Shown here: piece by piece, positions 4,000-26,577 of the stretch
Numbering within the stretch: the stretch's first letter is position 1
Layout of the letters: every line of letters starts with the position of its first letter
Assembly (NCBI GenBank): GCA_030615855.1
Contig: JAUWYL010000004.1
Location: 1 to 59,100, forward strand
Direction of reading: 5' to 3'
Length of the DNA stretch: 59,100 nt
Source: a bacterium
Lineage (GTDB): Bacteria > UBP18 > UBA7526
Translations under genes and position numbers: made by a program
The notes under the pieces: model-generated
Told to the model about the DNA's origin: nothing
The model's input: only the letters and a program-made list of their open reading frames with translations
The model's database searches: none

Positions 4000-5073
4000 T
4001 TAAAGGATTTTAGAGAGGGAGTTAATTAAACGAAGGCTTTTCTTGCGAGTTCTTACTGCGATACGGATGTATTTATTATTTAAGGAGTGAAAGAAGGAGC
4101 AGTCTCGAATGAGAATATGCTTCTGGATCAGTTCCTCTCGAAGTTTTTTAGAGCCCATTCTATCGGTCAATCGGCAGAGTATAAAGTTGGTGACTGAGGG
4201 ATAGGGTTTCAGGCCATCGATTTTAGATAATCCATGATAGAGAAACTTTCTCTCTTTCGAGACAAGGCTCTTTGTTTTTTTAATATATTCTTTATCTTTC
4301 AGGGCCGCTATTCCTGCTATCTGAGCAAGGGCATTGACGCTCCAGTATTCCTTATGAATCTTCATCCTTTTTAGAAGATCCTTATTCCCTATTCCATAAC
4401 CAATCCTTATTCCGGGAAGGGCAAAGAATTTTGTTAAAGATTTGATTATAAACAAATTATTCTTTTTAACTGCTTCCTGAATTAAAGTCTCTTCTTTTTC
4501 ATTTTCAACGAAGTCCATGAATACCTCGTCTACGACAACAAAAATTCTCTTTTTTCGGGCGATGCCGATTATCTTCAGTAGGTCGGCTTTATTTATAAGT
4601 TGGCCCGTGGGATTGTTTGGATTGCATAAGAAAAGCAAATCCATTTTATCCAAATCTTTCAATAATTTTTCTACATCTAACCTAAAGTTGTCTTTGAATT
4701 TTAAGGGGAAAAACCGTATCCTACATCCCACGCTTTTTAAGGCAAATTCATACTCGCTAAAAGTGGGAACCACGATTAATGCTCTCTTTGGCCTAAGAGT
4801 GCGGCAGATGAGATAGATAAGTTCTACTGCCCCATTTCCGGCAATAACATTTGCTGGACTAACCTTTAGATATTTAGAGAGTTCTTTTCTTAGATTTATT
4901 GTCTCCGGGTCAGGATAACGAGCAATTCTATCTAAATTTTCTTTCAAGGCTTTGATTACTCTTGGAGAAGGACCTAGAGGATTGATATTGGCACTGAAGT
5001 CTATTATCTTCTCTTCTCTTAATCCATATTGTCTGGCAATCTCTTCTACATTCCCCCCGTGAACATGTTTCAT
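4000..5073 (-). CDS. cobD: threonine-phosphate decarboxylase (cobalamin aminopropanol arm)
   Basis: The 357-aa PLP-dependent fold-type I protein begins HGGNVEEIARQYG and continues DFSANINPLGPSP, the usual start of CobD. Later come NPNNPTG (residues 151-157), the PLP-binding Asp in VVVDEVF (about 182) and the Schiff-base Lys in SLTKFFALPGIRIGY (about 215). It resembles HisC, but the context decides: PduX and CbiB are encoded directly upstream. It converts L-threonine phosphate to (R)-1-amino-2-propanol phosphate, which CbiB attaches to cobyric acid. AGGGAG precedes the ATG. It is the last gene of the operon. Confidence 0.92.
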   Translation of the reverse strand: MKHVHGGNVEEIARQYGLREEKIIDFSANINPLGPSPRVIKALKENLDRIARYPDPETINLRKELSKYLKVSPANVIAGNGAVELIYLICRTLRPKRALIVVPTFSEYEFALKSVGCRIRFFPLKFKDNFRLDVEKLLKDLDKMDLLFLCNPNNPTGQLINKADLLKIIGIARKKRIFVVVDEVFMDFVENEKEETLIQEAVKKNNLFIIKSLTKFFALPGIRIGYGIGNKDLLKRMKIHKEYWSVNALAQIAGIAALKDKEYIKKTKSLVSKERKFLYHGLSKIDGLKPYPSVTNFILCRLTDRMGSKKLREELIQKHILIRDCSFFHSLNNKYIRIAVRTRKKSLRLINSLSKIL

Positions 5074-5263: not shown

Positions 5264-6187
5264 TTATTTTGAGATTATTTGTAAGCCATCGTTCACTATT
5301 TTTGTTTTGTAGAAAACTTTGCCAATTCCCCTGCCCTGTAAGGAGTTCTTCAGTTCTTTAAAATCGACTTCATTTGGTTCAGCCAGAATGCCTACTACGG
5401 TTCCGCTGTGGGCGATGTTTATTCCTAAAGCCCCGGCCTCTTGGGAGATCTCCCATATTCTATCAAGAGCAGGCTTATAGAGGATTCTCTGGTTACTGAA
5501 GGCGCTAATCGTTGCTCCTTTGGCAATCGATCTTGGATTCTTTCCCTTTATCCCTTCTTCCACTAACTTTAAGGCTTCTTTTATTTCTCCTTCTCTCTGC
5601 CGATTGATTTCAGTCAAATCCTTCTTATTGAACTCTAAGGTATCAACTCTCCCCCCCAGATCGATAACAAGTATCTCCATATCTGGTGCTTTCCCTAAGA
5701 ATTTGAAGAGGGCGCCGTTTCTATGATCGAAGATGGTTATTCCTTCAAATAAGGTTCCATCCGTGGGCTCGATGGATAGGGCAATCTTAGCAATTTCTTG
5801 GAGAGATATCTCTTTGCGTTTTTCAGTTTCAGCCTGAGGCTGATCCGCCTTTGGCGGAAAATTTTGCGCTTTGGCGGTTGCAAGAGAGGTGGCTCCAATG
5901 TCTGCGGTAGAAGAAGCCATTCCCTTCCCCAAAGGTATTTTAGAATCAATCTCAAAATTCGCTCCAAGATTTTCTTTGCCGAAGAATTTTAAAGTCTTTT
6001 TAATTGCTTCTCTCGTCTTCCACTTATCAGGAGGGCCAATTATCTTACCCCTGTCATTCAAGACAATTCTCACCTGTGAATATAGATTTATGGGGCAAGA
6101 GATATGAAAACTTTCTCCATTGAGCGTTCCCTGAACCAATTCCCCGCAGGAGCCAGGTGCCTTTGCTATACCTATGAGAGAAGCCAT
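5264..6187 (-). CDS. pduX: L-threonine kinase, PduX-type GHMP kinase
   Basis: The 307-aa GHMP-family kinase starts with a substrate loop (APGSCGELVQG) and has the ATP-binding motif PLGKGMASSTADIGA (85-99). PduX phosphorylates L-threonine, the substrate of CobD encoded next. Residues about 105-126 (KAQNFPPKADQPQAETEKRK) come from an inserted repeat with a perfect CCGCC-TTT-GGCGG palindrome; a related copy without that palindrome lies after rpmB. The ATG overlaps the end of cbiB by 16 nt, implying translational coupling. Confidence 0.9.
   Translation of the reverse strand: MASLIGIAKAPGSCGELVQGTLNGESFHISCPINLYSQVRIVLNDRGKIIGPPDKWKTREAIKKTLKFFGKENLGANFEIDSKIPLGKGMASSTADIGATSLATAKAQNFPPKADQPQAETEKRKEISLQEIAKIALSIEPTDGTLFEGITIFDHRNGALFKFLGKAPDMEILVIDLGGRVDTLEFNKKDLTEINRQREGEIKEALKLVEEGIKGKNPRSIAKGATISAFSNQRILYKPALDRIWEISQEAGALGINIAHSGTVVGILAEPNEVDFKELKNSLQGRGIGKVFYKTKIVNDGLQIISK
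5813..5881. repeat. composite dispersed repeat inside pduX
   Basis: On the minus strand this reads GCAACCGCC...CGCAAAATTTT, a CCGCC/GGCGG palindrome, then CTGAAAAACGCAAA. The outer parts reappear on the plus strand at 51584-51622 (GCAACCGCCGAGACGCAAAA and CTGAAAAACGCAAA) without the central palindrome. Confidence 0.8.
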
Positions 6188-7134
6188 CTAACAAAAACCC
6201 CCAAGATTAGAGTGAGAACAGATGTTAGATACATTAGATTGCTGGATTCTTTGATATGGATTGGAGAAAGTTTTCTTTTGGGGCTGCCTAAATATGGCTT
6301 TACCGTCTTTTTGCCCCGATAATAATTTACTCCACCCAATCTAATCCGCAGGGCTCCAGCCATCGCCCCCTGGGGAAGAGCGGCATTTGGGCTATGATAC
6401 TTGCTTCCGTCTCTAAACATAACATGGAAGGCACTCCTCCCATCTTTCCTAAACAAGAACGCTCCCAGTGAGATCAATACCCCTCCTAAGCGAGCAGGAA
6501 TGTAGTTAGCGATATCATCTAATTTCGCTCCTGCCCAACCAAAGTCCTTATATTTTTTGTTTTGATACCCAATCATGGAGTCTAAAGTATTTATCGCTTT
6601 ATAAGCAAAGGCCAAGGGAACACCGCCTAAGAAGAGATAGCATAGAGGAGCTACTACACCGTCTATGGTGCTCTCTGCTATAGACTCCACTACCCCTCGA
6701 ATTATTCCCTTTTTCCTTAGATCTTTAGTATCCCTTCCTACAATTTGAGAAAGTCTCTTCCGGGCCGACTTAAGGTTCTTCTTCGCTAATGCTTGATAGA
6801 CCCTTTCTCCTCCCTGAGCAAGTCCTCTTATAGAAAGAGTGGTAAAAGCGCCCCAGATGGTCACAATTAAACCCAGAACGGGGTGCAGCTCATAGGCTAT
6901 TTTAATAACTGTCCAGGCAATTAAGAAACTTCCTCCCACAACAATAACCGCTAAAATAACCCCGGCAATCTTTTTACGATTTAATTCTTTGCCGTAAACG
7001 GTAAACCGTAAACTGTAAACCTTTCTTTCCAAAAATGAAATGGCTTTTCCCATCCAAACCACAGGATGGCCCAGCCACTCGGGATCCCCCAAGGTTAAAT
7101 CCATGATATAGGCGATAACATATTCCAAGCCCAC
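6172..7134 (-). CDS. cbiB: adenosylcobinamide-phosphate synthase, CbiB
   Basis: The 320-aa membrane protein has the family's DLTLGDPEWLGHPVVWMG start, four to five hydrophobic segments, the GDPEW-type motif and the conserved region SKYHSPNAALPQGAMAGAL. It joins aminopropanol phosphate to cobyric acid at the membrane. The start is a GTG preceded by AAGGAG at good spacing. Residues about 38-49 (KVYSLRFTVYGK) are encoded by four heptamers (GTAAACx), which likely lengthen a variable loop. It lies between tonB and pduX in the riboswitch operon. Confidence 0.95.
   Translation of the reverse strand: MGLEYVIAYIMDLTLGDPEWLGHPVVWMGKAISFLERKVYSLRFTVYGKELNRKKIAGVILAVIVVGGSFLIAWTVIKIAYELHPVLGLIVTIWGAFTTLSIRGLAQGGERVYQALAKKNLKSARKRLSQIVGRDTKDLRKKGIIRGVVESIAESTIDGVVAPLCYLFLGGVPLAFAYKAINTLDSMIGYQNKKYKDFGWAGAKLDDIANYIPARLGGVLISLGAFLFRKDGRSAFHVMFRDGSKYHSPNAALPQGAMAGALRIRLGGVNYYRGKKTVKPYLGSPKRKLSPIHIKESSNLMYLTSVLTLILGVFVRWLLS
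6991..7021. repeat. heptamer tract inside cbiB
   Basis: Four consecutive 7-bp units of the form GTAAACN lie in frame within cbiB. The same family occurs intergenically at 25107-25137 and 51307-51322. Confidence 0.85.
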
Positions 7135-9000: not shown

Positions 9001-10902
9001 TTAGAACTTTATCTTCATTCCCACTATCCCCGTCCTTCGGGGCATGGGATAGTGCTCTCTCATCTCATAGTTGGTATTGAAAACGTTGTTAATCCCAGCA
9101 AACCAGGTGAAATACTTCTTAGTGTATTCTACCCTGAGGTTGGTCAGGAAATAACGAGGGAGTTCTCTTGCTTTTGTATTGGCTTTATTAACGAAGCGAG
9201 AGTCAACGAACTCCTCTTCTATCCGAGCAAGAAGCCCAAATTTAGACTTATACTCTAAGTAGGCATTGGCCTTATGTATCGGCAGATAGGTAAGATGGTT
9301 GTTGTAATTAACTCCTACTGTCTTATTCCTCGTCTCTAACCAGGTATAGCCTATGCCACTTGATAAATACTTGCCCATCTTGGCCTTCAGTTCTGATTCT
9401 ATCCCCCAGATTAAGGCTTTTTCTACGTTCGTCGGATTCCAGGTGTTGTCTCCATCCTCATCCGCCCAAATGATGAGGTCTTCCACTTCCCTTCTGAAGA
9501 AGGTCAGTTTTCCTAATAGATTCTTGGTGAAAACCTGGTCTATTCCCCCTTCATAGGCCCAGGCCTTCTCTGGCTTCAAATCAGGGTTTCCTACCCCCAT
9601 CCCAGGATCATTGGCATAGAGGTCAGATAGGGTAGGGGCCCGGAAGGCTTTCCCTCCAGAGGCCCTCAAGGTAGTCTTCTTCGTCACCTTATAGAGGATG
9701 CTTGCTTTAGGAGAGCCCTCTGTGCCAAAGGCCGGATGGTAATCCCATCTGCTTCCTATGGTAAAGGTTAGAGGCTTGCATATCTTTATCTCATCCTGAA
9801 TCCAATAGGCCTGGGTGGTCAGATCATGCTTAATATCCGGTCTCACCCCCGATTGTATAGAGTCTAACCCATCCTCATGAAGGTCAGTCCCAAGAGTAAT
9901 CTTATTTCTCTTCCCAATCTCTATGGAGTACTCTGCCTCCCCTCCCAAGACATCCATTCTATGAAAGGAGGGCGCTTTGGTATGGGTGATATTTTTTAAT
10001 TTCTCTTCCCTTCCGTAGGCCTTCAAAGAGAGGTTGGATCGCTCACCTAACTTTGCTTTCCATCCCAGGCTTCCCCAAACCCGGTGCTTATGATTTCTAT
10101 CGTCATAATCCGGCGTAGTTTTCTTATCCGGATTTCCATGCTCCCCATTATAGTATCCACCCTCAAGGATGAATTTTGACCAACCAGCCAGATCATAAGT
10201 CAATTTTCCAAAGATGGCATGGGCGTCATAATCGCTGTTAGGCCGATGTCCCTGGGATTGATACTGCCCACCAGAGAGGAGGTAGCCAAACTTCTTTATC
10301 TTTGCCCCATGGGCAAACTTATTAATGAAGGTATTATGCGTAGCATAGGATGTTTCATAACTAAAGGTAGGCTTCTTGGGCGGCTTCTTGGTAATGATAT
10401 TTATCACCCCACCCATGGCACCCGAGCCATAAAGAGCAGATCCCGGACCTCTCACCACTTCTACTCTTTCAATATGTTCCAGAAGAGGGAATTCGCCAAA
10501 ATCTACATAGCCATATTGGATACAGTTCATCCTCTGACCATCGATCAAGACCAAAACCTGTTTCGATGAAGAACCACGCATACTCACCGTGGTAGAAGCC
10601 CCCATGGCTCCGTAACTATCTACCTTAACCCCGGTCTCCCTCTCTATTACTTCTCCGATGTTTCTCGCTCCACTCTTTGCAATCTCTTCTTTGGTAATGA
10701 TGGTAGTGTGGAGAGATACATCTCCCAGGAGTTTGGGGGTTCTGGTGGGAGTGATAACTACCTCTCCTAAGTCAAAGATTTCTTCCTGCCTGCCCTCAGC
10801 CGCGTAGGCAGGAGTGAACAGTGAACAGTGAACAGTGAACAGTGAAGCCAGGATGCCGCTTAGTGCTGATAATAAAACTATTAAACCTCTTTTCCCTTTC
10901 AT
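9001..10902 (-). CDS. btuB: TonB-dependent corrinoid receptor, BtuB-like
   Basis: The 633-aa protein has a signal peptide, a TonB-box-like EVVITPTRT, a plug domain (about 60-165, with VLVLIDGQRMN and GALYGSGAMGGVINIITKKP) and a 22-strand-type barrel ending in IVGMKIKF. A cobalamin riboswitch directly upstream fixes the likely substrate as corrinoids. Residues about 20-40 of the leader, including the predicted AYA cleavage site, are encoded by a palindrome plus a 7-bp tandem array. RBS GAGGAGG lies next to a small hairpin that may mediate translational control. Confidence 0.93.
   Translation of the reverse strand: MKGKRGLIVLLSALSGILASLFTVHCSLFTPAYAAEGRQEEIFDLGEVVITPTRTPKLLGDVSLHTTIITKEEIAKSGARNIGEVIERETGVKVDSYGAMGASTTVSMRGSSSKQVLVLIDGQRMNCIQYGYVDFGEFPLLEHIERVEVVRGPGSALYGSGAMGGVINIITKKPPKKPTFSYETSYATHNTFINKFAHGAKIKKFGYLLSGGQYQSQGHRPNSDYDAHAIFGKLTYDLAGWSKFILEGGYYNGEHGNPDKKTTPDYDDRNHKHRVWGSLGWKAKLGERSNLSLKAYGREEKLKNITHTKAPSFHRMDVLGGEAEYSIEIGKRNKITLGTDLHEDGLDSIQSGVRPDIKHDLTTQAYWIQDEIKICKPLTFTIGSRWDYHPAFGTEGSPKASILYKVTKKTTLRASGGKAFRAPTLSDLYANDPGMGVGNPDLKPEKAWAYEGGIDQVFTKNLLGKLTFFRREVEDLIIWADEDGDNTWNPTNVEKALIWGIESELKAKMGKYLSSGIGYTWLETRNKTVGVNYNNHLTYLPIHKANAYLEYKSKFGLLARIEEEFVDSRFVNKANTKARELPRYFLTNLRVEYTKKYFTWFAGINNVFNTNYEMREHYPMPRRTGIVGMKIKF
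10785..10846. repeat. palindrome plus GTGAACA heptamer array in btuB leader
   Basis: CCTGCCTGCC pairs with GGCAGG (10785-10812) and is followed at once by 4.7 perfect tandem copies of the 7-mer GTGAACA (10814-10846). All of it lies in the signal-peptide coding region in an open frame. A degenerate copy of the same heptamer array is intergenic at 37880-37922. Confidence 0.9.
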
Positions 10903-10929: not shown

Positions 10930-10943
10930 AGATAACGTTTTTG

Positions 10944-11120
10944 GTAGATAGCCAGGTCTCCTGACTTCCCGCACCTTTGGTTAACCTTCCCTCCCGATTC
11001 AAATCGAGAAGTGGTATTATTGCTCTAAAGCATATACCAAAGGCGCAACCTTCTAAAAAGATGCGGATTACAGTGGCGGGGCCATTCCGGATTTTAACCG
11101 GATTCCCTTAGGCTATCTAC
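10944..11120 (-). promoter_or_regulatory. cobalamin riboswitch (btuB leader)
   Basis: The minus-strand transcript has a perfect 10-bp closing stem (GUAGAUAGCC/GGCUAUCUAC), the GGGAAUCCGGU element, the B12-box core GCCCCGCCACUGUAAUCC and the 3' element GUCAGGAGACCUGGC. The class is unmistakable. It controls btuB-exbBD-tonB-cbiB-pduX-cobD. The aptamer is nearly the same as that at 20089-20267. Confidence 0.96.
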
Positions 11121-11207
11121 TCTTTTCCTTCACCTCCTCTCCATACACGGATTTCCTTTTACTGCCTATTGTTAATGCATATTTGACACGGATTATCGCA
11201 GATAAAA

Positions 11208-12008
11208 TCAAACTTGTTTTCTTTTATTCCTACCAGATACTAAGAAGACGTGGGGCTTGAAAGAAACCGGGCTTTTTTCTACTACTACTAATGTTTTATA
11301 AACCTTCTCGATATTCTGATAGGTTAGAATCTCTTGAGGTGAACCCTCCTGAAATACTCTCCCCTCTTTTAAGAGGATTAGTCTCTCACAATACTCTGCT
11401 GCTAAGTTGAGATCATGGGATACCATGAGAACGGTCAAATTTCTCTTCTGGTTCAAGTTCTTAATCAGATTTAGGATCTCTACCTGATGATTGATGTCTA
11501 AATGGGCGGTTGGTTCATCAAGGAGGAGGATCTCCGGCTCCTGGGCTAAGGCCTGAGCAATTACCGTCCTCTGCCTCTCCCCTCCGCTTAAATCCTCCAA
11601 ATTCCTCTCCTCCAATCCTAAGGTGTCTGTCTCCTCCATAACCCCTCGAACTACTTTTAAATCCTCTTCGCTTTCTAATAGTTGGAATCTTCTCAAGTAG
11701 GGGGTGCGACCTAAGAGAATAAAATCTCTTACAGAATAAGAAAAGAAGAGTTCCTGCATCCTCTGAGGAACAATAGCCATCCTCTTGGCTAATTCCCTAT
11801 ATTTAATCTCATCTAACCCTCTTTCCTCTAAAGTCACCCTTCCCTTCCAGGGCTTGAGTATCTTACTGATTACTCTTAGAAGAGTCGTCTTGCCGCTTCC
11901 ATTGGGCCCGATCACCCCTAAAAAATCTCCCTTTTTAATGGTAAAGCTAATATCATTCAGGATGGCTTTTGTATTATATCCTGTGGTCACTTTCTCTAAT
12001 TTGAGCAT
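11208..12008 (-). CDS. btuD: corrinoid ABC transporter ATPase
   Basis: The 266-aa ATPase carries Walker A GPNGSGKTT, the signature LSGGERQR, Walker B EILLLDEPTAHLD and a switch His (VSHD), in FecE/BtuD order. It powers BtuC-mediated import. It begins immediately after btuC and closes the cobU operon, with the second riboswitch following. The family also covers siderophore importers; the operon indicates corrinoids. Confidence 0.92.
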   Translation of the reverse strand: MLKLEKVTTGYNTKAILNDISFTIKKGDFLGVIGPNGSGKTTLLRVISKILKPWKGRVTLEERGLDEIKYRELAKRMAIVPQRMQELFFSYSVRDFILLGRTPYLRRFQLLESEEDLKVVRGVMEETDTLGLEERNLEDLSGGERQRTVIAQALAQEPEILLLDEPTAHLDINHQVEILNLIKNLNQKRNLTVLMVSHDLNLAAEYCERLILLKEGRVFQEGSPQEILTYQNIEKVYKTLVVVEKSPVSFKPHVFLVSGRNKRKQV

Positions 12009-12009
12009 C

Positions 12010-13005
12010 TCATTTCCCCAACTTTAGTCTCTTCTTGGTAAGAAAATAGATGAAGAGCGAGCCACCAAGAATCCCAGTAATTACTCCCACGGGGAGTTCC
12101 AGGGGAGAGATGATAGTTCTCGCTAAGGTATCGCTGGCGATTAGAAATATCCCTCCTGCCAGACAGGAAGTAGGAAGGAGGATCCTATGGTCTGGACCGA
12201 CGAAGAGGCGCATGAAGTGAGGAACAAGTAATCCTACAAAACCGATTATTCCCGATACCGAGACCGCTACTCCAGCGATTAAAGAACCTAAGATGAATAG
12301 GGTTCTCTTCGTCCTTTCAATATTTACTCCCAGATGCAGGGCCTCCTCCTCTCCTAAAGATAGGACATTCAGGTCCCGACTAAAAAGGAAAGAGATGGCT
12401 ATTCCGACCAAGATAATGAGTGAGACTAACTTTATAAGGGGAAAATTGGACTCTTCCAGGCTCCCCATAATCCAGAATAATATTCCGTGCAATTGATGTT
12501 CCCGAGATAAGGACATGATGAGAAGGATGATGGCAGAGGCAATGAAGCTTATCATCACCCCGGTCAGTAAGAGCATAGATATTCTAAGATATCCTTGCCT
12601 CCGGGCAATGAAATAGACCAGGGAAACGGCTCCCAGGGCTCCCAGGAATCCCGCTAAGGGGAGGATTCTGAAGCCAGCAATAATGGATAAGCTTACTCCT
12701 AAGGCCGCTCCCCCAGAGACCCCTAAGGTATAGGGCGAAACTAAGGGATTCCTAAACATCCCCTGGAAAATGACCCCGGTAACACTTAAAGCTCCGCCCA
12801 CAATCAGGGCTAAAATAATACGTGGGAGCCGGATATCAAAGAGAATAGAATATTCAATGCTTTTCTCTCCAGAAATAATCAAGGGAATAATCTTTTTAAA
12901 AGGAATCCCGGCTGAGCCCATGCTTAAAGAGAATAGTCCCACAACTAAAAGGAGCCCCATCAAGGCCAATATCCAGATAATCCAGCGGATCAATTTCTTA
13001 TCCAT
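12010..13005 (-). CDS. btuC: corrinoid ABC transporter permease
   Basis: The 331-aa permease of the FecCD/BtuC family has about ten membrane segments. Family marks include DIRLPRIILALIVGGALSVTG, the GMFRNPLVSPYTLGVSGGAALG stretch and the ATPase-contact region IGFVGLLVPHFMRLFVGPDHR. It forms the inner-membrane channel with BtuD. It overlaps btuR by 8 nt. Confidence 0.93.
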   Translation of the reverse strand: MDKKLIRWIIWILALMGLLLVVGLFSLSMGSAGIPFKKIIPLIISGEKSIEYSILFDIRLPRIILALIVGGALSVTGVIFQGMFRNPLVSPYTLGVSGGAALGVSLSIIAGFRILPLAGFLGALGAVSLVYFIARRQGYLRISMLLLTGVMISFIASAIILLIMSLSREHQLHGILFWIMGSLEESNFPLIKLVSLIILVGIAISFLFSRDLNVLSLGEEEALHLGVNIERTKRTLFILGSLIAGVAVSVSGIIGFVGLLVPHFMRLFVGPDHRILLPTSCLAGGIFLIASDTLARTIISPLELPVGVITGILGGSLFIYFLTKKRLKLGK

Positions 13006-13522
13006 CTATTCCTTTCCGTTCTTTTATTCCTTGATCAAAAGGATGTTTAATTTTTCTTATTTCGCTTACTAAATCAGCCCTTTCAATCAGCCACTGCGGT
13101 GCTCCTCTTCCAGTGAAAACGATCTCCAGCCCTTCGGGTTTCTTTTCCAGGAATCTCAAGATCTCCTTTTTCCCAAGATAACCTTCCCGCAAAACAATGT
13201 TCATTTCGTCAAGGATGAGCAAATCGTAATCCTTTTGGAATGTTCCTTCGATGAAAGAAAGTGCCTTCAAACACTTCTTTCTCCCTTTCTCAAAGCCCAT
13301 CTTCTTGTAAGAATGGAGTTTTACAGGAATAAGATCATGGACCTCAATGCCCAGTCTTTTTAAAACCTTGCCCTGTCCTTGTTCGAAGATATCCCGGGGT
13401 TTAAAGAAAGTAATAAAACAAACCTTAAAGTTATAGGCAATAGCCCGAACAGCTAACCCCAGGCTGGCGGTAGTCTTTCCCTTACCATTCCCGTAGTAGA
13501 CCTCAATCAGCCCTTTCTCCAT
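12998..13522 (-). CDS. btuR: cob(I)yrinic acid a,c-diamide adenosyltransferase (CobA/CobO/BtuR)
   Basis: The 174-aa protein opens with YYGNGKGKTTASLGLAVRAI, the modified P-loop of the CobA/BtuR type, and keeps DLLILDEMNIVLREGYL and FTGRGAP. It transfers 5'-deoxyadenosine from ATP to Co(I) corrinoids, which commits imported corrinoids to salvage. It starts 1 nt after the btuF stop. Length is close to that of E. coli BtuR. Confidence 0.94.
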   Translation of the reverse strand: MEKGLIEVYYGNGKGKTTASLGLAVRAIAYNFKVCFITFFKPRDIFEQGQGKVLKRLGIEVHDLIPVKLHSYKKMGFEKGRKKCLKALSFIEGTFQKDYDLLILDEMNIVLREGYLGKKEILRFLEKKPEGLEIVFTGRGAPQWLIERADLVSEIRKIKHPFDQGIKERKGIDG

Positions 13523-13523
13523 C

Positions 13524-14372
13524 TCAATCCCCTTTCTTTGGGTGAAGGAATTCCGCTATCTCCTCCAGGGCCTCAACGAAACTTACCGGTGTGGGACTAC
13601 AGGTCTTATTAGAATCAATGATATATATTCTGTCATTCTTGACTGCATCCAGGGTCTTAAACTTCCTCCAAACTTTTTTCTCTTCTTCGCCCACAATGCC
13701 CATGGTTACGATGATAATTACTTCAGGGTTTTGCCTGATAACATCTTCCCGGCTGTAAAGTCCACTCTTCGCTCCGCGAGCAATGTTTATCCCGCCGCCG
13801 AGAGCGATGAGATCTTGAATAAACGAATCTTTGATTATCGTAAATAATGGCCTTGCTCCTATCTGAACGAAAACTTTTGGCTTGGGCAGGCCTTTAATCC
13901 CTTTACTGATGGAATCTATCTTATTTTTCATCTGGCAAACTATCTCTTCCGCTTCAGCTTCTCTTCCAACAATCCTCCCTAATTCCATAAACTGCTCACA
14001 GATCTGGGAAAAATTCTTGTTCTCATAGAGGGGGAAAGAAATGACCCTCATGCCCAGAGATTTCAGTTTTTCAATCTGCCCAGGATCGGTTAAAGATGTA
14101 GCCAGTATTAAATCTGGTTTGAGAATCAGTATCTTTTCCAGGTCCACTTTAATTACTGTGCCCACCTTTTCTTTTTCCTTAGCTTCAGGGGGGCGGTCGC
14201 AATATACGGTTGTGCCCACAATTCTATCCTCCATTTCCAAGAGATAGAGTTCTTCAGTTATGGCGGGACTTAAGGAGACAATCCTCTGGGGCGATTCACC
14301 TCTTGTTTGTGAGATTAGGAGAAGAGAAATAGATAAAATTAGGATTAAAATACTTATCCCCTTAATTTTCAC
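13524..14372 (-). CDS. btuF: corrinoid-binding periplasmic protein
   Basis: The 282-aa protein has an N-terminal signal sequence (ISILILILSISLLLIS) and a two-lobed type III binding fold with RIVSLSPAITEELYLLEMEDRIVGTT and LEKILILKPDLILATS. This is the BtuF/FhuD pattern. It hands corrinoid to BtuCD. No lipobox Cys is visible, so it is probably soluble in the periplasm. It sits between the radical SAM gene and btuR. Confidence 0.92.
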   Translation of the reverse strand: MKIKGISILILILSISLLLISQTRGESPQRIVSLSPAITEELYLLEMEDRIVGTTVYCDRPPEAKEKEKVGTVIKVDLEKILILKPDLILATSLTDPGQIEKLKSLGMRVISFPLYENKNFSQICEQFMELGRIVGREAEAEEIVCQMKNKIDSISKGIKGLPKPKVFVQIGARPLFTIIKDSFIQDLIALGGGINIARGAKSGLYSREDVIRQNPEVIIIVTMGIVGEEEKKVWRKFKTLDAVKNDRIYIIDSNKTCSPTPVSFVEALEEIAEFLHPKKGD

Positions 14373-14384
14373 TTTAAGTCTCCA

Positions 14385-15245
14385 TTAGGAGGTTAGAATC
14401 TGGTTCATGGTGAGATACTGCATATCCCAGTCCTTGATAATCAATTTAGATATTTCATCGATTCTCTTAAAATCCTCTAATAGCTCATCTGAGCGAACCT
14501 CTATACACTTATAGGGATCGGGCTTATAGGCAGTGTTAGTGGTATAAAATTCGACATGGTCTAAGTAGCTTCTGGCAACATTGAAGGCCTTTAACATCTT
14601 CTTTTCGGTCGGTCTTCTTTTTGAAATGTTATTCTTCACATATTCGGGTGAGAATTGGTATATTTTATAAGTTATACCTTTATTAATCTTACTTAAAAAT
14701 CTTGCTATCTCTTCAATCTCACCAAAGTCTATGACGTCTGGAATGAATATTGTTCGCACATAAAAATTTAGACCATATCTATTTAATATCTCTACCGCTT
14801 TTAATACCTTAGCATTGCTTTCACCAGTGTACCATTTATGAATTTTATCGTGGTATGCTTTCAGGTCTAATTTAATATAATTCACATCTAAAGACCTTAG
14901 CTCTTTAACTAAGTCTTTACCGAGCAGATGGCCATTGGTTGAGATACCAATTTTACTCACCTGGAGTTCTCTTAATTGGCGGATTAGAGAAAGTAGGTAA
15001 TCGGTATTCATCGTTGGCTCGCCACCTGTAAATTGAACATCCTCGATCATTTCGCCATAGATGAACTGGCAAGACTTAATAAGTAGATTGAGAAGTTCCT
15101 CAACTGACAGGGCTCTGCCCACTTCTTGCTTGGCGATGGCAAAGCATCCTCGGCAATCAAAATTACAGCCGGATAGATTGATCTTCACTTTTCTCTTGGG
15201 GCTTACCACAAATGTTAAGAATGGCACTCTTCTGCATAAGGTCAT
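14385..15245 (-). CDS. radical SAM protein in the cobalamin operon
   Basis: The 286-aa protein has the cluster motif CNFDCRGC (CX3CX2C) near residue 27, then QFTGGEPTMN, the SAM-binding GGE motif, and a TIM-barrel-like body. It resembles PFL-activating-enzyme-type radical SAM proteins in size. No auxiliary cluster motif or B12-binding domain is obvious. It abuts cbiZ (stop/start adjacent) and precedes btuF, so it is co-transcribed with salvage genes. Substrate unknown; a corrinoid-linked role is inference from context. Confidence 0.82.
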   Translation of the reverse strand: MTLCRRVPFLTFVVSPKRKVKINLSGCNFDCRGCFAIAKQEVGRALSVEELLNLLIKSCQFIYGEMIEDVQFTGGEPTMNTDYLLSLIRQLRELQVSKIGISTNGHLLGKDLVKELRSLDVNYIKLDLKAYHDKIHKWYTGESNAKVLKAVEILNRYGLNFYVRTIFIPDVIDFGEIEEIARFLSKINKGITYKIYQFSPEYVKNNISKRRPTEKKMLKAFNVARSYLDHVEFYTTNTAYKPDPYKCIEVRSDELLEDFKRIDEISKLIIKDWDMQYLTMNQILTS

Positions 15246-15977
15246 TTAGTACCTTCCATTTTGTTTCAAAATGGCTTCCTTTACAGCAGAGGTCACCGCT
15301 CTCGCCATCAATTCTCCGGCCTTAGTATGCCCACCCACATAGCTTATTCTTGGGCCATTGCCTGATACGATTACAATATTATCGGTTCCTGTGCCCGTGG
15401 CCTGAATTTCAGGACTATACGAACTCCTTATATCCATATCTTGGAAGGCTATTACTTTGGACTCAGTTATAGTAATTATGCTTCTCGACATGGCACCATC
15501 CGTGAGTGATGCATTGGTCAAAACTATTATATTGACGGTACCGAGGCGCTCGAATTTGCCTTCCTCCTTCTCCACACTTCCCGCTTTGTCTACTCCCACC
15601 CTCTGGGCGTTAGATTTCGCTCCCGCGGTAACGCAGGCATAGACCCTGAAGTCTTCGTATTCTTCCCTCTTGATGGAAAGGTTATCCATATCTGCGCCCG
15701 TAAACAACATGGCTACATCACCGGGCTCGAGTTTTAAATCAGCACAGATTCTTTCCTCATATTCCTTCCTATTTTGATGAACGAAGTCCCAGAGCTCAGG
15801 GGGATTGTAGTGATTAGCCACGTATCGCACTTTCTTAAATCCTTCCAAGGTGCTCAAGGCCTTTCTTCTCTCGGCAAAGAAGATGAGAAAGGTTTTTACT
15901 TCAGTCTCTTTAAAGCGATGATAGATTATCTGCGCTTTTATATCTTCCAAATCCAAAACAATCTCTTTACTTCTCAT
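15246..15977 (-). CDS. cbiZ: adenosylcobinamide amidohydrolase, CbiZ
   Basis: The 243-aa protein shows CbiZ family marks: VYACVTAGAKSNAQRVG, NIIVLTNASLTDGAMSRSIITITE and the TGTGTDNIVIVSG motif. CbiZ removes the aminopropanol side chain from adenosylcobinamide to give adenosylcobyric acid. CbiB plus PduX/CobD can then re-derivatise that product. This route is best known in archaea and some bacteria. It overlaps the PP-loop gene by 11 nt. Confidence 0.93.
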   Translation of the reverse strand: MRSKEIVLDLEDIKAQIIYHRFKETEVKTFLIFFAERRKALSTLEGFKKVRYVANHYNPPELWDFVHQNRKEYEERICADLKLEPGDVAMLFTGADMDNLSIKREEYEDFRVYACVTAGAKSNAQRVGVDKAGSVEKEEGKFERLGTVNIIVLTNASLTDGAMSRSIITITESKVIAFQDMDIRSSYSPEIQATGTGTDNIVIVSGNGPRISYVGGHTKAGELMARAVTSAVKEAILKQNGRY

Positions 15978-16632
15978 TTTTAGGGATAACCTCCAAGAAC
16001 CAATGTTTGTTTTTAAACACTTTTCTGCCGGTTGTAAACTTTACAGGCTCTCTAAAAATTGGCTCATCAAAGACAAAGGTATGGTATTCACCTTTCTCTC
16101 CACAGAGATCGATATTGCCTAATCTCTTCAGGTCTTTTATGAATTCTTCATCTATTCTACGGCCCAGCCACTCTTTGCCTAATAAATCAGCCTTAGTGGC
16201 TACCACAATGGCTTTGAAACCAGCTCGGATAAATTCTTTCAGTAATCTCTCCCGATCTTTTCCCCATAAAGGTAATACTGGTTTAATTTCTATCTCTCTA
16301 CAAACTCTTTCTATCCAATCCCGGTGTTCCTGAAGGTCGATATCACCGAAAATACCTATCTCAACACCCTCCTTTTTCAACTCTGAAACTGTTCTTTTAA
16401 ACACCTTTTCATAACTTTCCCAAGTAGTCTTCCTTTGGATGATGGGGATGCCCATGGCATCCGATTGGGCCCTCAAAAGAGCTGAGCTAAGTCCGTGGGA
16501 GCGAGAACGTTTACCATCCTCTGATACCATATTTACAAGATATTCGACCTTAAGGTTCTTGTTCTGCATCGCTCTATAACAGGCTAAAGATGTTTCCTTG
16601 CCTCCACTCCAGGAAACAAATGCCTTTTCCAT
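15967..16632 (-). CDS. Dph6-like PP-loop ATP-pyrophosphatase (COG2102/MJ0570 type)
   Basis: The 221-aa protein starts with the PP-loop FVSWSGGKETSLACYRAM and has GIFGDIDLQEHRDW and CGEKGEYHTFVFD, the marks of the diphthine-ammonia-ligase-related family. Eukaryotic Dph6 adenylates a carboxylate and amidates it with ammonia. Bacteria lack diphthamide, so another acid must be the substrate. Encoded between an AsnB-like protein and CbiZ, it may amidate or adenylate a corrinoid or its linker; this is inference. Confidence 0.85.
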   Translation of the reverse strand: MEKAFVSWSGGKETSLACYRAMQNKNLKVEYLVNMVSEDGKRSRSHGLSSALLRAQSDAMGIPIIQRKTTWESYEKVFKRTVSELKKEGVEIGIFGDIDLQEHRDWIERVCREIEIKPVLPLWGKDRERLLKEFIRAGFKAIVVATKADLLGKEWLGRRIDEEFIKDLKRLGNIDLCGEKGEYHTFVFDEPIFREPVKFTTGRKVFKNKHWFLEVIPKNEK

Positions 16633-17592
16633 TTACATCCGCCAGTCCAAAACATTTCCGCAAATCTGGCAATGAAAGCTATTTAAATTCATCCCCGCCC
16701 CGCAGCCTGGACAGGTTTTCTGATTATTTTTAGGTTCAGTAATTTCTCCCACTTCCTTTTTGTAAATCTCATAATAGTAGAGATGCTCCTTATTCATAAA
16801 CTTCACTGGATATCGCCTGTTTTTATGTTCAAACTCTTCATCCGGGATCTTTGAGGTAATAATCTCTCTTAATTTTCTCATACCCGAGCCATACTCCAAG
16901 GGTCTCTTATCCTGCCAGATAATCTTAGCAGGCAACATCTTCTTAAAAGCCTTGCGCAAAATCCATTTTCCCCATAAATTTCCGTTTTCTTCTTTAATCT
17001 TAAGTTCTACGGGTATCTTGAGGGAAAAGTCGATAAATTCTTTGTCCAGAAAGGGCTGTTTGACCTTAATATTAAAAAAACTACCCAACTCATTAGAACT
17101 AAATTGTAGCGAAGAAGATATTTTTTTAATGTATTTATCCAAATTTTCTATATCCTTCACCCCGCTCGTGCTTGCACGGGCGGGGTTCATGAAATCATAG
17201 CCGGCAAAGAGCTCATCGCTTCCATCGCCAGTCATTATCTCTTCCATTCCCATCCCCTTTGCTAATTTTAGGCCAAAGTAAACAACCAGGTCATTGGGGA
17301 TTGCCGGATCAAAGCTCTTAAGGATCCTTATTACATCTGGAATAGAATCTATCGCTTCATCTATACTCACCCTTCTGTGATAATGCTTTAGTTTTAAATT
17401 CTTGGCCACTAATCCAGCATATGAGATATCCTCTCCAAAGGATTCCAGGCTGACCGTGATGGCCTTCATATTGGGATTTAAAACCGCTAAGATACTGGTA
17501 TCCAATCCTCCAGAAAAGAGTAGCCCCTCTGCAGAATTCCGCCTGACAGCCTCTCTCAATTTTTTTCTTAGTTCGCTAGAGACTACTTTCAC
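16633..17592 (-). CDS. asparagine-synthase-like ATPase with C-terminal zinc ribbon
   Basis: The 319-aa protein has only the synthetase half of AsnB: PP-loop LLFSGGLDTSILAVL (27-33) and the GDGSDELFAGYDF motif (122-134). The N-terminal glutaminase domain with its Cys nucleophile is absent, so it should use free ammonia or another nucleophile. The tail has CPGCG and CQICG, a rubredoxin-like zinc ribbon. Residues about 136-144 (PARASTSGV) come from an inserted palindrome. It overlaps cobS by 4 nt. True substrate unknown. Confidence 0.82.
   Translation of the reverse strand: MKVVSSELRKKLREAVRRNSAEGLLFSGGLDTSILAVLNPNMKAITVSLESFGEDISYAGLVAKNLKLKHYHRRVSIDEAIDSIPDVIRILKSFDPAIPNDLVVYFGLKLAKGMGMEEIMTGDGSDELFAGYDFMNPARASTSGVKDIENLDKYIKKISSSLQFSSNELGSFFNIKVKQPFLDKEFIDFSLKIPVELKIKEENGNLWGKWILRKAFKKMLPAKIIWQDKRPLEYGSGMRKLREIITSKIPDEEFEHKNRRYPVKFMNKEHLYYYEIYKKEVGEITEPKNNQKTCPGCGAGMNLNSFHCQICGNVLDWRM
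17160..17188. repeat. CCCCGC palindrome inside the AsnB-like gene
   Basis: CCCCGCTCGTGC pairs with GCACGGGCGGGG (11 of 12) across a 2-nt loop and is followed by TTCA. The same head-and-tail design occurs at 21738-21794, 26549-26577 and 30400-30453. Confidence 0.85.
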
Positions 17593-18341
17593 AGAATTCC
17601 CTTGGTGAGATTAAAAAGTAAGAAAAGAATGAATAGGGTTCCCACTTCAATTATCTCGTTTACTGCTCCTAGGGTATCACCCGTCATTCCTCCAATCCTT
17701 TTAGAAATAAATCTCGTCAAAAGAAGGGTCAGAGCTAGAATGAAGAGGAATAGTTCCAGGCCCAAGATCTTTAAGAAACCTCCAGTAATTATTAAGGCAA
17801 TTAAACTGGCAACAATTAGCTCTTTTCTTCCACAATAATCAAGAAACGCCTTTCCTGTTCCTTTCTTCCGAGCATAAATAGATAAAGAAGAAGCGACCAC
17901 CATAGCCCATCTTCCCATAACAGGAAAGAGAAGTAGGGCCCCCCTCTTTATTTCTAAAGGCATCTCGTGGAGCAGGACTAACTTGAGCATTATTAAAGAG
18001 ACTACTCCCACTATGCCAAAAGCGCCCACCCGGCTATCCCTCATAATTTTTAGAATCTCTTCCTTCGTTTTTCCTCCAGAGAGTCCATCAATAGTATCGA
18101 TAAAGCCATCGATATGTAAGGCCCCGGTTAGAATGATTAAAGCAATGATAGTTAAGGCATCTGCTACTAAGGGAGCTAAAAGAATAGAGAATCCCCAGTT
18201 GACTAGAACTAAAATCCCACCTAAAATCAATCCCACAATCGGGAAATAGGCCATGGACTTTCCCAGTCTCTTCTCATCTTTAGGATATTTACCCACAGGA
18301 ACTCGAGTTAAAAATCGAAGAGCGATTAACAAATTTATCAT
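17589..18341 (-). CDS. cobS: adenosylcobinamide-GDP ribazoletransferase, CobS
   Basis: The 250-aa integral membrane protein begins LIALRFLTRVPVGKYP, typical of CobS. It has GALHIDGFIDTIDGLSGGKTKEEILKIMRDSRVGAFG, the metal-binding CDP-alcohol-transferase-like motif, and about six membrane segments. It joins alpha-ribazole (phosphate) to cobinamide-GDP. It has 4-nt overlaps with cobT upstream and the AsnB-like gene downstream. Confidence 0.95.
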   Translation of the reverse strand: MINLLIALRFLTRVPVGKYPKDEKRLGKSMAYFPIVGLILGGILVLVNWGFSILLAPLVADALTIIALIILTGALHIDGFIDTIDGLSGGKTKEEILKIMRDSRVGAFGIVGVVSLIMLKLVLLHEMPLEIKRGALLLFPVMGRWAMVVASSLSIYARKKGTGKAFLDYCGRKELIVASLIALIITGGFLKILGLELFLFILALTLLLTRFISKRIGGMTGDTLGAVNEIIEVGTLFILFLLFNLTKGIL

Positions 18342-19405
18342 TTTTCCTCTATACTTTTCGAGACTTCAGCAGATTCGAAGGTTGCCATCTCGGTCAATAT
18401 CTTCACTCCGACCTCAATGAGACTAATCCCTAAACAAGCGCCGGTTCCTTCGCCCAAGCGCATATCCAAGTCTAGCAAAGGTCGTAATCTCATCCTTTCC
18501 AAGATAGCCCTATGGCCTACCTCAACTGAAGAGTGGCTAGCGAAGATATAATCTTTTACTTTGGGTTCTAATTCGAAGGCGATCAATGCTCCAGCAGTAA
18601 CGATGAAACCATCAGTAACCACTGGTATCCTGTGAGCTGCTGCTGCCAGAAAGGAACCGGCCAATCCTCCGATCTCGAAGCCCCCTACCTTGGCCAAGAC
18701 ATCTATGGGATCCTTTGGATTAGGTCTATTTAATTTGATAGCCCTCTTTATTACCTTTATCTTATTTTCAAATATTCCATCATTTATTCCTGTTCCCCGA
18801 CCAGTAACCTCTTCTACTGGCCTACCAGTAATGACTGCCGTGACAGCGCTTGAGGGCGTAGTATTCCCTATCCCCATGTCTCCTAAGCCCAGGATGTCGA
18901 TTCCCTTCTTATACTCTTCCTCAAATACCTCTATTCCGGCCTCAATAGACTCTATTGCCTCTTCCCTGGTCATGGCCGGCCCCTTGGCCATATTCTTTGT
19001 CCCATACTCTATCTTTTTAATTTTTAATTTTTCATTTTTCATTTTTAATTCGCTAGCTACCCCCATATCTACAACTATTACTCTTGCTCCTATATGGCGG
19101 GCTAAGACATTTATTCCCGCTCTTCCCCGTATGAAGTTATAGACCATCTGGGGGGTTACTTCTTGGGGGAAGGCGCTTACTCCTTCTTTAACTACTCCAT
19201 GGTCTCCGGCCATAGTGAAGATAACTTTGTTCTTAAAGGAAGGGTTCTTTTCCCCAGTAATTCCTACTACTTTCTTGGCCAATTCTTCTAACCTTCCCAG
19301 AGAATCTTGTGGCTTAGTCAGATTATCTAGTCTCTTTTGAGCCTCTACCATTAGTTTCTTATCAACTGGCCCTATTCTTTTGATTATTTCTTCAATCCTT
19401 CCCAT
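18338..19405 (-). CDS. cobT: nicotinate-nucleotide-dimethylbenzimidazole phosphoribosyltransferase, CobT
   Basis: The 355-aa protein has LTKPQDSLGRLEELA, FTMAGDHGVVKEGVSAFPQEVT, GLGDMGIGNTTPSSAV and the catalytic-Glu region LDLDMRLGEGTGACLG, all standard for CobT. It makes alpha-ribazole phosphate from a lower-ligand base. No lower-ligand synthesis gene (bluB, bza) is in the window. Residues about 119-132 (ELKMKNEKLKIKKI) fall on a TTTTTAA heptamer tract, though total length there stays near normal. Confidence 0.95.
   Translation of the reverse strand: MGRIEEIIKRIGPVDKKLMVEAQKRLDNLTKPQDSLGRLEELAKKVVGITGEKNPSFKNKVIFTMAGDHGVVKEGVSAFPQEVTPQMVYNFIRGRAGINVLARHIGARVIVVDMGVASELKMKNEKLKIKKIEYGTKNMAKGPAMTREEAIESIEAGIEVFEEEYKKGIDILGLGDMGIGNTTPSSAVTAVITGRPVEEVTGRGTGINDGIFENKIKVIKRAIKLNRPNPKDPIDVLAKVGGFEIGGLAGSFLAAAAHRIPVVTDGFIVTAGALIAFELEPKVKDYIFASHSSVEVGHRAILERMRLRPLLDLDMRLGEGTGACLGISLIEVGVKILTEMATFESAEVSKSIEEK
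19014..19052. repeat. AT-rich heptamer tract inside cobT
   Basis: TTTTTAA, TTTTTAA, TTTTTCA, TTTTTCA, TTTTTAA follow one another with a 7-bp period, in frame in cobT. Related tracts fill 19945-19995 and 42189-42330. Confidence 0.7.
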
Positions 19406-19410
19406 TTACA

Positions 19411-19926
19411 TCACCCCTTCACTTTTACTGGAATTCCAGATACCACCAGATAGACTTCATCTGCTGCCTGGGCGACTATCTGGTTTGCTCTGCCTGCTAT
19501 ATCTCTAAACCTTCGGGCTAATTTGTTATCCGGTATAATCCCCATTCCTACTTCGTTAGAGACTATCAAAACGGTTGCCTTAATCTCTCTTATTTTGTTT
19601 ACCAGTTGCCTAATTTCTTTTAAAACATCCTTTCTACCGCTCAATAATAAATTAGAAATTAAGAGGGTGAGGCAGTCTAAGAGAATGACCTCACTCTTTT
19701 CTGCTATTCGGGATAATACTTCAGTAATATTCTTCTCCTTCTCTACTGTTCTCCAGTGAGAAGGACGATTCTTTCGATGAATCTTTATCCGCAGTTCCAT
19801 CTCCTTATCTCTTGCTTGGGCAGTAGCAATATAGGTCACTTTCTTACTTAACCTATTGGCCAACTTCTGGGCGAAAGTGCTCTTGCCGCTCCTCGCTCCT
19901 CCAGTAATGAATATTAACCTTCCCAT
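19411..19926 (-). CDS. cobU: adenosylcobinamide kinase / guanylyltransferase, CobU
   Basis: The 171-aa protein has the P-loop FITGGARSGKSTFAQKLA at its N-terminus, VTYIATAQARDKEM, and VSNEVGMGIIPDNKLARRFRDIAGRANQ, the classical CobU set. It phosphorylates cobinamide and transfers GMP to give cobinamide-GDP. It is the first gene of the long salvage operon. GAGGT precedes the ATG, about 80 nt after the riboswitch terminators. Confidence 0.95.
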   Translation of the reverse strand: MGRLIFITGGARSGKSTFAQKLANRLSKKVTYIATAQARDKEMELRIKIHRKNRPSHWRTVEKEKNITEVLSRIAEKSEVILLDCLTLLISNLLLSGRKDVLKEIRQLVNKIREIKATVLIVSNEVGMGIIPDNKLARRFRDIAGRANQIVAQAADEVYLVVSGIPVKVKG

Positions 19927-20046: not shown

Positions 20047-20086
20047 AAAAAAAGTACTTCAACCTTCCCTCGAAGGCCAGTTACTT
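20047..20086 (-). terminator. first of two tandem terminators, directly after the aptamer
   Basis: CCTTC-GAGG-GAAGG, extended by GTA..CT/AG..TAC, is followed by seven T on the minus strand. It begins a few nt after the aptamer closing stem and is the natural expression platform. Confidence 0.75.
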
Positions 20087-20088
20087 CA

Positions 20089-20267
20089 GTATCCAGTGAG
20101 GTTTCCTGGCTCTCCCGCACCTTTGGCTAACCTTCCCTCCCGACTTAAAGCGAGAAGTGGTATTATTGCTTCCGAGCATATGCCAAAGGCACAACCTTTT
20201 AAAAAGGTGCAGGATTACAGTGGCGGGGCCACTCCGGTTTCTCACCGGATTCCCTCCACCTGGATAC
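20089..20267 (-). promoter_or_regulatory. cobalamin riboswitch (cobU leader)
   Basis: Closing stem GUAUCCAG/CUGGAUAC, GGGAAUCCGGUGAGAAACCG, core GGCCCCGCCACUGUAAUCC and the 3' GAGCCAGGAAACCU element define a cobalamin aptamer on the minus strand. With terminators downstream it should repress transcription of the cobU-btuD operon when adenosylcobalamin or a related corrinoid is bound. Confidence 0.97.
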
Positions 20268-20291
20268 TTACTAGATTTAGTTACTAAATCT

Positions 20292-26360: not shown

Positions 26361-26403
26361 TTATTTCGCGCTTTGACGGAAATTTTGCGTTTTCGCGTTT
26401 ACA

Positions 26404-26545
26404 ATCTTCTCCCGTCCGGACTAGACCGTCGGCACCGGAATCGCACCGGTTCAATCCGGACATAACCATATCCAGACTCGCGGGCTTCCTGCCTATCGGC
26501 AGGCAGGTTACCGCCGATCGAGGAATTCCACCTCACCCCGAAGAT
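26404..26545 (-). promoter_or_regulatory. FMN riboswitch (RFN element)
   Basis: The minus-strand RNA has closing stem AUCUUC/GAAGAU, GGGGUGAGGUGGAAUUCC, CGGCGGU, AGCCCGCGAG, GAUUCCGGUGCCGACGGU and UAGUCCGGACGGGAGAAGAU, the complete RFN consensus. FMN binding should stabilise the closing stem and allow the downstream terminator to form, shutting off rib genes. The variable stem is the palindrome CCTGCCTGCC..GGCAGG. Confidence 0.98.
26488..26507. repeat. CCTGCC palindrome forming the RFN variable stem
   Basis: Minus-strand CCTGCCTGCCGATAGGCAGG is nearly identical to the intergenic copy CCTGTCTGCCGACAAGGCAG at 47309-47328. It shares its arms with the btuB copy at 10785-10812. Confidence 0.7.
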
Positions 26546-26548
26546 TCA

Positions 26549-26577
26549 CCCCGCTCCTCCATGAGGGGCGGGGTTCA
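26549..26577. repeat. CCCCGC palindrome just 5' of the FMN aptamer
   Basis: CCCCGCTCCTC pairs with GAGGGGCGGGG (10 of 11) across CAT and is followed by TTCA. Same family as in the AsnB-like gene. It would be transcribed at the very 5' end of the rib leader. Confidence 0.85.

Follow-up and report, generated by a model that had tools for sequence, protein, structure and literature searches.

The DUF71 family has been divided into Dph6 and DUF71-B12, the latter being tied to btuFCD and cbiB (2012, PMC3541065). DUF71-B12 proteins are recognized by a histidine in place of Glu188, and a role for them in B12 salvage was predicted (de Crecy-Lagard et al. 2012, PMC3541065). The same study argued that they possibly hydrolyse rather than ligate, reported that DUF71-B12 and CbiZ are strictly anticorrelated in bacteria, and described AsnB-DUF71 fusions in some archaea (PMC3541065). 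The salvage link of DUF71-B12 is therefore not new, having been published in 2012, and the first-pass annotation of the locus described below, which had counted it among undescribed features, was mistaken on this point. The new part of this system is the AsnB-like protein: a search of open papers found nothing tying an AsnB-like protein to corrinoid amidation, and no link of an asparagine synthase with CbiZ and a radical SAM protein.

Genomic context of the AsnB-like gene

The window (the whole stretch of 59,100 nt that was analysed) is contig 27 of a 1.375 Mb genome that is 93.6% complete, from a phylum with only six genomes in the collection. Four consecutive ORFs are found on its minus strand between 14385 and 17592: an AsnB-like putative amide synthetase without a glutaminase domain and with a C-terminal zinc ribbon (16633-17592; PF00733, E = 1.8e-38), a DUF71-B12 PP-loop protein (15967-16632; PF01902, E = 2.2e-58), CbiZ, by family an adenosylcobinamide amidohydrolase (15246-15977; a full-length PF01955 match, E = 2.1e-53, 181.6 bits against a cut-off of 27), and a radical SAM protein (14385-15245; PF04055, E = 3.4e-25). 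The AsnB-like and DUF71 genes are separated by 0 bp, as are the cbiZ and radical SAM genes; DUF71 and cbiZ overlap by 11 bp, and the AsnB-like gene overlaps the stop of cobS by 4 bp.

This block is flanked on one side by cobU (19411-19926; PF02283, E = 1.2e-65), cobT (18338-19405; PF02277, E = 5e-141) and cobS (17589-18341; PF02654, E = 3.2e-56), and on the other by btuF, encoding a corrinoid-binding protein (13524-14372; PF01497, E = 1.6e-30, with a BtuF-like NCBIfam match), the adenosyltransferase gene cobO/btuR (12998-13522; PF02572, E = 3e-50), and the ORFs for the permease BtuC (12010-13005) and the ATPase BtuD (11208-12008), all on the minus strand behind a cobalamin riboswitch upstream of cobU (20078-20279; RF00174, 63.2 bits). 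A second cobalamin riboswitch on the same strand (10934-11131; RF00174, 60.1 bits) heads btuB, an ORF for a TonB-dependent receptor (9001-10902), followed by exbB, exbD, tonB, cbiB (6172-7134; TIGR00380, E = 2.8e-73, over the cut-off), a gene for a PduX-like GHMP kinase (5264-6187; a name inferred from GHMP kinase Pfam domains only) and cobD, encoding threonine-phosphate decarboxylase (4000-5073; TIGR01140, E = 3.7e-104, over the cut-off), likewise on the minus strand. The names btuB, btuC, btuD, exb and tonB were given from sequence and context.

The ORFs, the Pfam matches and the two RF00174 matches confirm a riboswitch-controlled B12 operon with four tightly packed genes, as the first-pass annotation had it. 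Its idea that these genes make a different linker found no support, since the window has cbiB, cobD and the PduX-like kinase gene for the usual aminopropanol linker. Elsewhere in the window, an FMN riboswitch lies on the minus strand at 26400-26549, and the ORFs downstream of it were read as riboflavin synthesis genes.

Sequence and distribution of the AsnB-like family

The AsnB-like protein aligns to the synthetase half of Escherichia coli AsnB (1CT9, E = 4e-25); it starts at this half, with a PF00733 domain and no N-terminal glutaminase. Fifteen homologues share a set of invariant motifs, with SGGLD, GDxxDE and the lysine of WQxK conserved, and the cysteines of the C-terminal zinc ribbon are invariant in all 15 complete aligned homologues. 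The missing arginine of the E. coli AsnB aspartate site was considered as proof of a changed substrate. This argument was dropped, since the E. coli motif is missing from the lineage's full-length AsnB homologues too. An AlphaFold2 model built from a five-row alignment (pLDDT 40) was set aside. Palindromic, GC-rich in-frame inserts are observed in two AsnB-like genes (10 aa at 17158-17188 of the window; 18 aa near 2412-2466 of locus L002); their sites differ and their ends are the same, and they may be small mobile palindromes. The AsnB-like frame of locus L051 (7477-8400, genome G283) has two in-frame stops, as a decayed gene or through assembly errors.

We searched for the AsnB-like family in 386 genomes across the domain and in 237 Omnitrophota genomes, almost all of the genomes surveyed being MAGs. 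The matches come from the lineage of the window, 12 Omnitrophota and, from other families, the three genomes G097, G419 and G509. Every one of the 19 annotated AsnB-like loci belongs to a B12 cluster, and in the Omnitrophota a B12 gene lies no more than three genes away in 60 of the 72 DUF71 loci surveyed. In these loci neither of the two PP-loop proteins sits mainly away from B12 genes, the pattern that would have refuted the first-pass annotation. In a twentieth locus (L004) the AsnB-DUF71 pair is at a contig end, with no further B12 gene visible. Of 17 AsnB loci scanned for cobalamin riboswitches, that of the window among them, 14 have one and the remaining three begin at a contig edge; the AsnB-like gene comes first after the riboswitch in L130.

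It could be asked if the protein is an ordinary ammonia-dependent asparagine synthetase that was carried along by chance, since among curated families asparagine synthase B is the nearest, yet the protein scores 161.9 bits, under the cut-off of 499. The exclusive B12 linkage across families, the riboswitch control and the full-length AsnB homologues encoded elsewhere in the window genome all speak against this explanation, which we consider quite improbable.

DUF71, CbiZ and the radical SAM gene

The DUF71 protein of the window has a histidine at the Dph6 Glu188 position (EKGEYHT, aligned with GEFET of PF0828, in agreement with the ENGEF/YH signature), scores under the Dph6 cut-off of the curated family, and is encoded in the same operon as btuF and cob genes, as expected of DUF71-B12 proteins. 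It departs from the distribution described for this subgroup (no CbiZ in a bacterial genome), as CbiZ is encoded by the next gene. We keep the protein in DUF71-B12: the absence of CbiZ concerns how the subgroup is reported to be distributed and says nothing about the protein itself. The DUF71-CbiZ pair is seen again in L036, from the same family as the window, and genome G030, from another family related to the window only at domain level, has DUF71, CbiZ and the radical SAM gene in the order of the window (across two contigs with an identical 143 bp end, which were read as joined). These adjacent genes are clear exceptions to the published bacterial anticorrelation (PMC3541065), and the adjacency of the two genes, overlapping in the window, argues against DUF71 being merely a substitute for CbiZ. 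Within the Omnitrophota the anticorrelation is insignificant (DUF71 in 76 and CbiZ in 6 of 237 genomes, zero overlap, P = 0.095).

Most AsnB-DUF71 loci have neither cbiZ nor the radical SAM gene. The related loci L002, L003 and L005 carry AsnB and DUF71 and no CbiZ, and a genome-level search found no CbiZ in any of the four genomes of L002-L005. Homologues of the radical SAM gene follow DUF71 or CbiZ in L038, L047 and L132 (directly after DUF71 in L038). In other loci a second, related radical SAM protein (29% identical to that of the window) has its gene between DUF71 and btuF. CbiZ and the radical SAM protein are thus optional members of AsnB-DUF71 loci, and the four genes do not form the undescribed module that had been proposed at first. 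It had also been claimed that both PP-loop proteins adenylate for amidation; this is not established, since DUF71-B12 may hydrolyse rather than ligate (PMC3541065). A CbiZ 45% identical to that of the window is encoded near a reductive dehalogenase gene on the Dehalococcoides mccartyi plasmid pDhc6 (locus L129, 5.9 kb).

AsnB-like genes alternate with cbiP

CbiP calls in the fetched loci were confirmed by TIGR00313; NCBIfam matches confirmed eight more CbiP genes. Among 21 DUF71/AsnB clusters with cbiB, 11 have AsnB only, 10 have CbiP only, none has both and none has neither; as the loci were picked for carrying DUF71 or AsnB, the class of cbiB with neither is tested inside that set only. No surveyed DUF71/AsnB locus holds AsnB and CbiP together. 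Some AsnB loci have no cbiB nearby, and in eight genomes with DUF71 clusters without cbiB, CbiP is absent too. Genome-wide, CbiP (TIGR00313) is under the cut-off or missing in 18 out of 19 AsnB genomes; the absence of CbiP from the window, noticed at first, extends to the whole 93.6%-complete genome, which has no TIGR00313 match anywhere. The one AsnB genome with a CbiP over the TIGR00313 cut-off (G307) encodes it in a second cluster without AsnB, and this MAG may be a mixture of two genomes.

The two genes also take the same place: the position directly upstream of DUF71 is occupied by AsnB in L055 and by CbiP in L100, L102 and L123, and the position upstream of cbpB is likewise occupied by either. 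The probability of a perfect split is about 3e-6 if the 21 cbiB loci are taken as independent; the loci are related. On trees of DUF71, CobT, BtuC and BtuF, at least 3, 4, 7 and 8 state changes, respectively, are needed, of which one to four independent swaps per tree are well supported (not significant), so that the trees do no more than suggest that the swaps arose independently. Near-total non-co-occurrence and the shared genomic place suggest that the AsnB-like protein took over the job of CbiP. The earlier idea of amide rebuilding in this way gains support for the AsnB-like protein, and not for the four genes as one unit.

Other functions can be put forward for the AsnB-like protein. It may couple a corrin carboxylate to some amine other than ammonia, as a linker or conjugate, so that a modified cobamide is made and CbiP is not replaced; AsnB-fold enzymes are known to use other amines (one example is beta-lactam synthetase, here a weaker match), and the glutaminase is missing. 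We think this unlikely: AsnB comes with cbiB and cobD, the standard linker genes, and the gene that is exchanged is that of CbiP, an amide synthase, and not cbiB or cobD. Alternatively, AsnB and DUF71 may be one two-part enzyme, or DUF71 may receive activated nitrogen from AsnB, in a reaction of B12 salvage that has nothing to do with CbiP. In most loci the AsnB gene immediately precedes DUF71, and the two often overlap; the archaeal fusions (PMC3541065) point the same way. However, AsnB occurs without a nearby DUF71 in three loci (L043, L049 and L130), DUF71 is mostly found without AsnB, and CbiP fills the same place upstream of DUF71, which makes this explanation rather unlikely as well.

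Small unlisted ORFs matching CbpA (TIGR04164) are found after AsnB and before cbpB (TIGR04163) in B12 operons (L002:3230-3480, L046:7160-7400, L047:8640-8900, L054:8640-8920 and L049:11600-11715). An action of AsnB on the CbpA peptide together with CbpB, as in peptide-modification pathways, would fit the order of genes in these five loci. We rejected such a peptide role on distribution and hold it to be very improbable: CbpB has no match in the window genome (G000), though G002, from the same family, does encode it; it is missing from most AsnB loci, and it is found beside CbiP without AsnB in L090, L098 and L105. DUF4430 proteins are encoded beside btuB in two loci (L054:13776-14192 and L123:6550-6987), and are a possible extra corrinoid-binding protein.

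A candidate second route of corrin amidation

The reading towards which we lean, from sequence and genomic context, is that the AsnB-like protein stands in for CbiP as a non-orthologous replacement, re-amidating corrin carboxylates with ATP and ammonia and feeding CbiB. Corrinoids would be imported by BtuB/TonB/ExbBD and BtuFCD and adenosylated by CobO; where CbiZ is present, it would cleave at the f amide and so remove the old nucleotide loop. The free carboxylates of an under-amidated corrin would then be activated as acyl-AMP by the AsnB-like protein, as is expected because it is an AsnB-type enzyme, and amidated with ammonia, the probable nitrogen source because the glutaminase is missing. 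Fully amidated cobyric acid would thereby be supplied to CbiB, and the nucleotide loop would be rebuilt by CbiB, CobD, the PduX-like kinase, CobU, CobT and CobS. We infer for DUF71-B12 a related ATP-dependent job in the same salvage step, and for the radical SAM protein an optional accessory role. A salvager would need amidation if imported corrinoids are partly de-amidated, as they may be, or if hydrolysis by CbiZ or DUF71 is imprecise.

In its broader form, the proposal is that a second, unrelated cobyric acid synthase, AMP-forming, ammonia-using, of the asparagine-synthetase fold and controlled by cobalamin riboswitches, has taken the place of CbiP in salvage operons on several occasions, allowing bacteria to repair or complete corrinoids that are under-amidated; we regard this form as evenly balanced between right and wrong. 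If it is true, corrin amidation has a second enzyme solution, B12 predictions from genomes that require CbiP misjudge organisms with the AsnB-like gene, and the salvage of partly de-amidated corrinoids becomes a testable idea.

Comparison with known systems

With asparagine synthetase B (E. coli AsnB, 1CT9) the AsnB-like protein shares the homology of the synthetase domain and the ATP-site motifs; it differs in the lack of a glutaminase, the added zinc ribbon, the family-specific motifs and its restriction to B12 operons. With the DUF71-B12 subgroup (PMC3541065), the DUF71 of the window has in common the PP-loop fold, the histidine for Glu188 and the btuF and cbi/cob neighbours, whereas its gene is adjacent to, and overlaps, cbiZ in one bacterial genome. 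As in CbiZ cobamide remodelling, the presence of CbiZ with CbiB and CobU/T/S permits the nucleotide loop to be removed and rebuilt; here, however, CbiZ is joined to the AsnB-like, DUF71 and radical SAM genes, and most operons related to that of the window do without it. Sister operons carry the cobopeptide system (CbpA/CbpB, TIGR04164/TIGR04163), placed between DUF71 and either AsnB or CbiP, but the window genome lacks CbpB, which is a SPASM radical SAM enzyme unlike that of the window. With the CbiP/CobQ cobyric acid synthase (TIGR00313) the AsnB-like protein shares its genomic place and its partners (CbiB, CobD, DUF71 and BtuFCD), and both are expected to synthesise amides; the families are unrelated (an AsnB PP-loop fold without glutaminase versus the glutaminase-bearing CbiP), so that the relation between the two would be one of functional analogy only, and not of homology.
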